A DNA stretch of 64,000 bases from Methanobrevibacter sp. TLL-48-HuF1 (GTDB lineage Archaea; Methanobacteriota; Methanobacteria; Methanobacteriales; Methanobacteriaceae): the NCBI RefSeq assembly GCF_023617305.1, contig NZ_CP081485.1:1292501-1356500 (forward strand). The letters are read 5' to 3'. How positions within the stretch are numbered: the first letter of the stretch is position 1; the number at the start of each line of letters is the position of its first letter. The notes below the pieces were generated by a model that worked only from the letters and a program-made list of their open reading frames with translations, did no database searches and was not told the DNA's origin. Both the position numbers and the translations under genes were made by a program. This document shows positions 1,203 through 55,755 of the stretch, piece after piece.

Positions 1203-1230
1203 GGGTATTGTCCCTTTTTCCCTTTTTTTT
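1201..1230 (+). terminator. Terminator of ftr
   Basis: AAGGG and CCCTT form a five-pair stem around a six-base loop, starting at the ftr stop codon. It is followed by two T-rich runs ending in eight Ts. In archaea the T run alone often suffices for termination. Confidence 0.6.
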
Positions 1231-1315
1231 ATTTTAATTTTTTCATTCTTGAATTTTTACTCGTTTTTTAAAAATTGCTTTCACTTCGAAATATTGTTTT
1301 CAAATCCAAGTGAAA

Positions 1316-1325
1316 TTATATATTT
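1316..1325 (+). promoter_or_regulatory. Putative TATA box for the candidate structured RNA
   Basis: TTATATATTT is preceded by a purine-rich stretch (AAGTGAAA) that could act as a BRE. A start about 26 bases downstream of its centre falls near 1346, just before the first hairpin arm at 1349. Inferred from spacing and composition only. Confidence 0.4.
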
Positions 1326-1345
1326 AACATGGGATATAAGATATT

Positions 1346-1570
1346 TTGGAGCATGTAATGGTGTTATTGCATGCTCTGTGTTTGCAGATATATGGTATGA
1401 ATATTGATGCAAATTCGTCTGGTTAGTTTTTTGTGATACAAAAAGAGTCCAGTTAGGCATTAACTAGCTGGACATACTTTTTGTATTTGGTTAAATATAT
1501 AACTGGATATTTTAACACTTTAAATTGGTTATGTGTCCATTTTACATGGACACTACTTCTATTTTTAAAT
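1346..1570 (+). ncRNA. Candidate structured RNA with three hairpins (or a long nnr leader)
   Basis: This is the bulk of a 429-base stretch without a protein gene (1203-1631). It holds three clear inverted repeats. Arms 1349-1359 and 1366-1376 pair over 11 bases with one G-U pair and a six-base loop. Arms 1436-1445 and 1477-1486 form ten perfect pairs, enclosing arms 1447-1456 and 1464-1473 (ten pairs, one wobble, seven-base loop), with a small internal loop between the two stems. Arms 1533-1540 and 1546-1553 form eight perfect pairs with a five-base loop, followed by a T-rich run. The second and third hairpins both carry GTCCA/TGGAC. A TATA-like element sits at the right distance upstream. 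It is either an independent RNA or a 5' leader of the next gene. No match to a known RNA family is recognised. Confidence 0.5.
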
Positions 1571-7106: not shown

Positions 7107-7877
7107 ATGGCTCCATGTGGTATTGGAAAAAAATTCATTGCTGAATTGCTTGGAACATTTTTCTTAGTATTTTTTGGAACAGGTTCTGCAGTTATCACAT
7201 TGATGATATCAGAATCAGTTAATCCAAATAATGTAGGTATTGGAATTTTAGGCGGTTTGGGTGATTGGATAGCTATTGCACTGGCATTTGGGTTAACTGT
7301 AATGGTTTGTATCTATCTTTTTGGAAGAATTTCAGGAGCTCATTTAAATCCTGCAGTTACAGTTGGATTGCTGGTTAGTAAAAATATTTCTTTAGCAGAT
7401 TCTGTGTATTATATTGTAGCTCAGGTAATCGGTGCTTGTTGTGGTAGTTTAGCATTAGTTTTATGTTTAGGAATGCCTTCAGTGGTTGTTGGTGGTTTAG
7501 GTGCAACTGCTCCGGGTATGGGTGTAAGTTATTTACAAACAATATTTGCGGAATTTATCGGAACTTTCTTTTTAGTGCTTGTAATAATGGGTGTTGCTGT
7601 TGATAAAAAAGCTACTCCTAACTTTGCAGGTTTATCTATTGGTTTTACAGTAACTGCAGTTATTATTTTTTTAGGGCCATTTACTGGAGGTTCTATAAAT
7701 CCGGCACGTACATTTGCTCCTTATTTGATGGATTATTTGGTTGGTGGAATAAATCTCTGGATGTATTTCCCAATTTATTTAATAGGTCCAATTGCAGGAG
7801 CTATTGCTGCATCATTAGTATATACTTATCTGGCTAAAGATAATGATGTTTGTGAAATACCAGGACCATTTAATTAG
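7107..7877 (+). CDS. aqpM: Aquaporin, MIP family (AqpM type)
   Basis: This channel passes water and small neutral solutes across the membrane. The 256-residue product has six predicted membrane helices and the two half-helix NPA boxes, GAHLNPAVTVG and GGSINPARTFAP. The N-terminal FIAELLGTFFLVFFGTGSA and the internal repeat FAEFIGTFFLVLVIMGVA show the duplicated fold. The ATG at 7107 is preferred over an ATG at 7092, because GGAGTG at 7095-7100 is then a well-placed ribosome-binding site. Archaeal AqpM-type channels may also pass glycerol or dissolved gases. The coupling to the Cys-rich gene upstream is unexplained. Confidence 0.93.
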   Translation: MAPCGIGKKFIAELLGTFFLVFFGTGSAVITLMISESVNPNNVGIGILGGLGDWIAIALAFGLTVMVCIYLFGRISGAHLNPAVTVGLLVSKNISLADSVYYIVAQVIGACCGSLALVLCLGMPSVVVGGLGATAPGMGVSYLQTIFAEFIGTFFLVLVIMGVAVDKKATPNFAGLSIGFTVTAVIIFLGPFTGGSINPARTFAPYLMDYLVGGINLWMYFPIYLIGPIAGAIAASLVYTYLAKDNDVCEIPGPFN

Positions 7878-49100: not shown

Positions 49101-49838
49101 ATGAAATGGAAAAAAATAGGCGATATTTTAATATTAGACAATAAATTCACTGTACAATCAGATACACAATTAAAAGAACTTTCAGATAAACATAATGTAA
49201 AAACCATTATGAAAGTTGACCATATTTATGGGACTAAAAGAGAACCTGTTATAAAATTATTATATGGTAATGATACTGAAACAATCAACAAAGAAAATGG
49301 ATGTCTTTTTAAATTGGATTTAAAAAAAGTAATGTGGTCAAAAGGAAATAACAATGAGAGAATAAGAATAGCTAAACTTGTTGAGGATAATGAAACAGTA
49401 ATTGATATGTTTGCAGGAATAGGTTACTTTTCAATTCCAATAGGAGTTCACAGTAATGCAAAACAGATTTATTCGATAGAAATTAATCCTAATTCATTTC
49501 ATTATTTAAAGGAAAATATTAAATTAAATAAAATAAGCAATATTACTCCTTTACTTGGAGACTGTATAAACATAACTCCGGATTATAAAGCAGACAGGAT
49601 TATAATGGGATATGTAAAAACAACTCACCATTATTTAAAAGTAGCTATTGATAGCTTAAATAAAGGTGGAGTTATTCATTATCATGAAACAGTTCCTGAA
49701 AAATTAATGGATATCCGTCCGATAAATAGAATTAAAGAACTGGCTGGAGACAGGCAGGTGGAATTTTTAAAATTAAATAAAGTTAAGAAATACTCTCCGG
49801 GAGTATTTCATGTAGTATGTGATGCTAGGATAAATTAG
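49101..49838 (+). CDS. taw2: tRNA wybutosine-pathway aminocarboxypropyltransferase (Taw2)
   Basis: Taw2 transfers the aminocarboxypropyl group of SAM to the tricyclic base at position 37 of tRNA-Phe. The 245-residue product has KLDLKKVMWSKGNNNERIRI, the SAM loop VIDMFAGIGYFSIPIGVHS and MGYVKTTHHYLKVAIDSL with IHYHETVPE, where Trm5 methyltransferases have an N-[LP]P motif. That favours Taw2 over Trm5. GGAG at 49089-49092 supports the ATG at 49101. Its end overlaps converging cofG by 14 bases. Confidence 0.85.
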   Translation: MKWKKIGDILILDNKFTVQSDTQLKELSDKHNVKTIMKVDHIYGTKREPVIKLLYGNDTETINKENGCLFKLDLKKVMWSKGNNNERIRIAKLVEDNETVIDMFAGIGYFSIPIGVHSNAKQIYSIEINPNSFHYLKENIKLNKISNITPLLGDCINITPDYKADRIIMGYVKTTHHYLKVAIDSLNKGGVIHYHETVPEKLMDIRPINRIKELAGDRQVEFLKLNKVKKYSPGVFHVVCDARIN

Positions 49839-54648: not shown

Positions 54649-55755
54649 ATGGCGGATATTAAAGTTCCAATTGCAAAACCAATAATTGGAGAAGAAGAAA
54701 TTAAAAATGTTGTAGAAGTTTTAAAATCAGGAATGATTGCTCAAGGTCCTAAGGTAGCTGAATTTGAAGAAAAATTTGCTGCTTGGATTGGAACAAAATA
54801 TGCAATTGCAACTAATTCAGGAACATCTGCTCTACATGTAGCGCTACTTGCCGCAGGAATAGGTAAAGGTGATGAAGTAATAACAACTCCATTTACATTT
54901 ATAGCTACTGGAAATTCAATTGTTTACACTGGAGCAACTCCTGTTTTTGCAGACATTGATTTAAAAACATACACTATTGATCCGGATAGTATTGAAGCAT
55001 TGATTAGTGATAAAACAAAAGCTATTTTACCAGTTCAATTATATGGACAATCTGCAGATATGGATAGAATTAATGAAATTGCTGATAAACACGGCTTAAA
55101 AGTTATTGAAGATGCAGCACAGGCTCATGGTGCAATGTACAAAGGTAAAAATGTAGGTGCACTTGGGGATGCAGGTTGTTTCAGTTTTTATCCTACTAAA
55201 AACATGACTACCAGTGAAGGCGGAATTATAACTACTGATGATGAGGAATTAGCTAAAAGAGCACGTATGTTCAGAGCTCACGGTTCCAGCATAAAGTATA
55301 CTCATGATGAAATTGGTTATAATTTTAGAATGACTGATATTTCTGCAGCTATTGGCCTTGCACAATTAAATTCAATTGATGAATTCAATGATAAAAGAAT
55401 AGCTAATGCAGAATATTTAAACGAAGGTTTAAAAGATGTTGATGGGGTTCTAACTCCTTATTCAAATGATGATTTAAAACACGTTTACCACCAATATACA
55501 ATTTTCATTGAAAAAGGAAAAAGAGATGACTGGGTTAATTTCTTAACTGAAAAAGGTATTGGAACTGGTGTTCATTATCCTATTCCATTATATAATCAGC
55601 CAATTTATAAAAAATTAGGTATTGAAGGCAATGCACAGAATGCAGAACTTGCTGCAAATCATGTAATTTCTTTACCTGTGCATCCTTCATTAACACATAA
55701 AGATTTGGATTTAGTTATTGATGCTGTTAAACAAGCTAGTGACAGCTTTAACTAA
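54649..55755 (+). CDS. DegT/DnrJ/EryC1/StrS-family sugar aminotransferase
   Basis: These PLP enzymes usually transaminate keto-sugar nucleotides for surface glycans. The 368-residue product has [54 protein letters not shown] and the PLP-binding Lys in [15 protein letters not shown], followed by [18 protein letters not shown]. The sugar substrate is unknown and no other sugar-nucleotide gene lies beside it. GGTGATATAA precedes the ATG. Confidence 0.9.

Follow-up and report, generated by a model that had tools for sequence, protein, structure and literature searches.

A putative lineage-specific small RNA gene between ftr and nnr in Methanobrevibacter sp. TLL-48-HuF1

What lies between ftr and nnr in the genome of Methanobrevibacter sp. 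TLL-48-HuF1, and is it a gene in its own right? In the window, by which we mean the whole 64,000-nt stretch of contig NZ_CP081485.1 analyzed here, ftr (Pfam FTR and FTR_C matches) has its stop at 1202 and nnr (YjeF_N plus Carb_kinase) starts with an ATG at 1632 on the + strand. The gap of 429 nt between them houses a candidate RNA, which an initial annotation had taken for either a free RNA or a leader of nnr. We believe that the candidate is probably a young, stand-alone intergenic sRNA gene of the regulatory type, encoded on the + strand and specific to its lineage. Computation supports its fold, its strand, its conservation in two genomes, its restricted distribution and the history of the locus.

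The + strand of 1316–1600 is predicted to fold at −78.9 kcal/mol, compared with −51.1 kcal/mol (sd 4.1) for dinucleotide shuffles (z = −6.79; 0 of 200 equally stable), so the unusual density of stems noticed initially is more than chance. Among 1,602 segments of 160 nt taken from both strands of the 64 kb, the candidate RNA holds the top z-scores; three of these segments were placed on it by hand, and the on-grid segments starting at 1361 (+) and 1441 (+) also rank within the top 12. Elsewhere in the window, the strong fold starting at 7841 (+) resembled an ordinary 3′-end hairpin, and other strong folds are predicted at about 49521–49680 (−) and at 55281–55440 (−), with z about −5. The fold of the candidate is also strand specific. 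It is far stronger on the + strand (−55.4 kcal/mol) than on the − strand (−34.5 kcal/mol) because many of the + strand pairs are G–U.

The fold predicted for the sRNA comprises three strong hairpins, with a terminator hairpin after them. Hairpin 1 (1348–1377, +) is present as annotated, with 11 pairs that extend to 13 when wobbles are counted, and closes on a 4-nt loop. Hairpin 2 (1382–1414, +), which has 7 + 4 pairs, a 3 × 3 internal loop (GAU/UGA) and the apical loop GGUAUGA, was absent from the initial annotation, as was the basal stem closing the long hairpin 3 (1418–1508, +); both were predicted by RNAfold. The internal loop GAU/UGA below the GGUAUGA loop is symmetric and might form tandem G–A pairs, a possible protein-binding feature. 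In hairpin 3, the basal stem (about 1418–1425 with 1501–1508) encloses a two-part hairpin (1436–1486, +), which agrees with its first description in having 10 perfect pairs and then 10 with one wobble, and whose loop is GCAUUAA.

Predicted transcription signals lie on both sides of this fold. A GGG...CCC hairpin plus T runs at 1203–1231 (+), with a terminator-like scan match at 1201–1216 and a T-rich tract after it, is a probable ftr terminator and probably sets ftr apart from the RNA unit. The TATA-like element noted initially, here TTATATAT at 1316–1323, was seen again within an archaeal BRE/TATA promoter-like site, AGTGAAATTATATATT (1309–1325, TATA from 1315/1316, +). Scored with a position weight matrix (PWM) derived from the promoters of the genome's own tRNA and SRP RNA genes, this site comes first in the ftr–nnr gap and ranks 77 of 127,970 window positions, and its TATA/BRE resembles tRNA promoters. 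At the level of sequence, the candidate has the promoter of its own that characterizes an archaeal intergenic sRNA, in the form of the best-scoring TATA/BRE site of the gap. Transcription would begin near 1346, from the TATA at about 1316. Two ends are predicted for it: one at 1482, for an RNA of about 137 nt, and a likelier one at about 1567, for an RNA of about 220 nt. The possible early end coincides with a T5 tract (1478–1482, +) that was matched in the terminator-like scan, and the later one with a probable terminator (1533–1567, +). Its hairpin (1533–1553) has the 8 pairs claimed for it, but the T run at 1562–1567, containing a T5, lies about 9 nt downstream instead of following immediately. 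A further PWM match about 40 nt before nnr, AAAAGAATTATTAAAT (1581–1596, +), is a probable separate nnr promoter. Three transcription units, namely ftr, the RNA and nnr, would be the simplest model; the use of the promoter and the ends of the sRNA transcript are what we infer from these signals.

A search of 67 genomes of the genus with BLAST and covariance models found the RNA only in the genome of the window and in one sister genome, G006. The DNA of the sister genome is about 93–95% identical to the window and keeps the whole RNA with no stem lost; its counterpart of the candidate lies at G006:C1:1043513-1043680 (− strand). When 1346–1497 is aligned between the two, there are five substitutions, one deletion and one insertion. 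The substitutions amount to 5 in 152 nt (3.3%) vs 57 of 421 four-fold sites (13.5%) in ftr, nnr and sfsA, and 28% of the 152-nt segments of the region are as conserved as the RNA. The promoter region (1284–1345) carries 2 substitutions in 62 nt. The stretch at 1555–1631 before nnr, probably the nnr promoter and leader, surpasses the RNA in conservation, as only 1 of its 77 nt is substituted.

All 57 pairs of the consensus structure are retained in both sequences; five of them vary, each remaining a standard pair, and one is altered on both sides. Hairpin 1 is identical, hairpin 2 shows one A–U to G–U change, and the terminator hairpin (1533–1553) preserves its pair through a U–A to U–G change. 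The basal stem of hairpin 3 is the fastest-changing part of the RNA, with its pairing retained. The one-sided stem changes leave G–U on the + strand and would give A–C mismatches on the − strand. As to compensatory changes, pairs are kept throughout but only one has changed on both sides, from U–G to G–U, within a stem that depends on the alignment; covariation is minimal because only two closely related sequences exist. Against random mutants of 1346–1560 with the same substitution types, the fold of the sister sequence is better than 97.7%, with 2.3% as good. Taken separately, the tail is equaled by 0.9% of the mutants and the core by 10%, the latter a weak result. This test modestly favors selection on the RNA structure, and a stable structure is maintained across the two genomes that carry the RNA. 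A repeated GTCCA/TGGAC motif in two of the stems had been taken as a hint of a protein or small-molecule site. The reuse is real in the window, but the motif reads GTTCA..TGGAC in one stem and GTCCA..TGGGC in the other in G006, and therefore the repeat is probably a coincidence and its reading as a binding site is unsupported.

The same comparison bears on a small protein-coding gene as an explanation, in the form of a 26-aa ORF (1346–1426) that overlaps hairpins 1 and 2. Between the two genomes its 5′ half hardly varies, and an SD-like GGAG stands 6 nt before an internal ATG at 1358. The coding reading is weakened, however, because a 1-nt deletion in G006 shifts the frame near the end of the ORF; the sole earlier substitution is non-synonymous, and the start is buried within the 13-pair hairpin. 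We regard a coding function as highly improbable.

Covariance models of the whole RNA, the 5′ domain and the 3′ domain were run against the 67 genomes of the genus and against 139 genomes of the family, and returned only the two known copies as credible. Weak matches in three genomes (G017, G014 and G082) fall inside open reading frames, and two other genomes, G046 and G049, gave further weak ones (E about 9). The pattern of hairpin 1 gave nine matches in a collection of genome contigs, all in unrelated bacteria, and the Nnr protein as a query gave no match in that collection. This distribution is central to whether the RNA is a long, structured, riboswitch-like 5′ leader of nnr. The RNA does lie directly upstream of nnr on the same strand, with only a weak terminator between them. 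But nnr is present in 64 of the 67 genomes of the genus, almost all of them, and the RNA in only two, a mismatch that defeats the leader reading. Moreover, a conserved promoter-like site lies close before nnr itself, and relatives show AT-rich, promoter-like sequence immediately before nnr. A leader is thus a distinctly unlikely explanation, and this half of the initial proposal found no support. The other half, a free RNA, gained support from its own promoter-like site, the terminator-like hairpin of ftr before it and the separate promoter-like site of nnr, as well as from the + strand-specific fold and from stem changes that stay paired in the sister genome.

Could the structure instead consist of DNA-level inverted repeats left by a mobile element such as a MITE? 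The hairpins are bounded by a perfect 13-nt inverted repeat, TTATATATTTAAC (1316–1328) and GTTAAATATATAA (1490–1502), which overlaps the TATA site, and the unit has replaced a gene that is present in relatives. Yet the unit is single copy, with one orthologous copy only in the 138 other genomes of the family, and a search of viral contigs, phages and plasmids recovered no copy. The 13-nt repeat is absent from G006, and a repeat of at least this length arose in 4 of 200 shuffled versions of the gap. The mobile-element reading is weakened because the unit is single copy and the repeat is lost in G006, and the fold is strongly strand specific, which DNA repeats do not require. We consider such an origin very unlikely.

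The gene replaced can be recognized in relatives. Where enough upstream sequence is available, the gene preceding nnr is mostly one for a TrkA-type K+ channel, encoded on the opposite strand, and where the DNA extends far enough, ftr is often found just beyond the channel gene. We name it a K+ channel from its sequence as read, which has a pore motif (TVGYGDY) and a TrkA-like nucleotide-binding domain. The gene is missing from the genome of the window and from G006, where only distant TrkA-like matches occur. The RNA unit thus occupies the former place of the channel gene, which this lineage has lost. In another genome, G005, ftr and nnr are neighbors separated only by a decayed channel gene; TrkA-type fragments (two tblastn pieces with a stop) were observed in the gap on the reverse strand of G005:C52. 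This apparent pseudogene is an intermediate between the intact channel of relatives and its loss in the window.

Two observations, the decayed gene in the same gap of G005 and the terminator-like matches in the window's own gap, invite the reading that this gap has no RNA function and consists of terminators in tandem or of a relic intergenic sequence, made up of the ftr 3′ region and the remains of the channel gene. However, no channel-gene remnant is recognizable in the ftr–nnr gap of the window (tblastn best E 7.8), and the decayed gene was rejected as a source of the RNA sequence for this lack of similarity. In addition, a terminator-like hairpin at 1201–1231 already belongs to ftr, several of the hairpins are not of the terminator kind, and the promoter-like site and the hairpins change more slowly than four-fold sites. 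A functionless relic is unlikely.

The candidate sRNA gene can be compared with known systems. In Methanosarcina mazei, sRNA154 and sRNA162 are intergenic trans-acting sRNAs restricted to the methanogen lineage, and for sRNA154 a stable structure has been predicted in which a pair of loops binds target mRNAs (review PMC5867862; PMC3600222). Our candidate, predicted from sequence alone, is likewise intergenic and lineage-restricted; unlike them, it comes from a different methanogen order, and the Rfam scan gave nothing credible for it. At gathering and permissive thresholds, Rfam 15 returned no family and only spurious matches, the best of which (E 0.17) is far below threshold. Like archaeal RNase P RNA and SRP RNA, the candidate is strongly folded behind a TATA-like promoter, but it matches no Rfam family and the genome has both of these RNAs elsewhere. 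The archaeal RNase P model (RF00373) had no match in the window, the copy of the genome being at G000:1237923-1238203, and the SRP RNA gene was also located outside the candidate locus. The candidate resembles riboswitches and structured leaders as a structured RNA upstream of a gene, and differs from them in that its distribution in the genus does not follow that of nnr and that nnr has a separate promoter-like site. In the openly accessible literature, we found no sRNA described for the genus.

The sRNA would most likely act through pairing of the hairpin 2 loop GGUAUGA, the hairpin 3 loop GCAUUAA/GUAUUAA or the 5′ domain with target mRNAs, or through binding of a protein. Regulation through base-pairing is a guess made by analogy. 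One 11-nt seed around the hairpin 2 loop matched only within reading frames and revealed no convincing target, nor any shared one close to a start codon. A bolder version, which we hold to be doubtful, is that a structured RNA gene peculiar to the M. smithii complex arose recently, replaced the lost K+ channel gene, stands outside the described RNA classes and might bind a protein or ligand rather than act by simple antisense pairing. The candidate gives a precise, testable prediction of a transcript with its start, strand, size and structure, and would illustrate neatly how an RNA gene restricted to a single species complex can occupy the place of a protein gene that has disappeared. Should it prove to be transcribed, the lineage of the dominant human-gut methanogen would have a dedicated structured sRNA.
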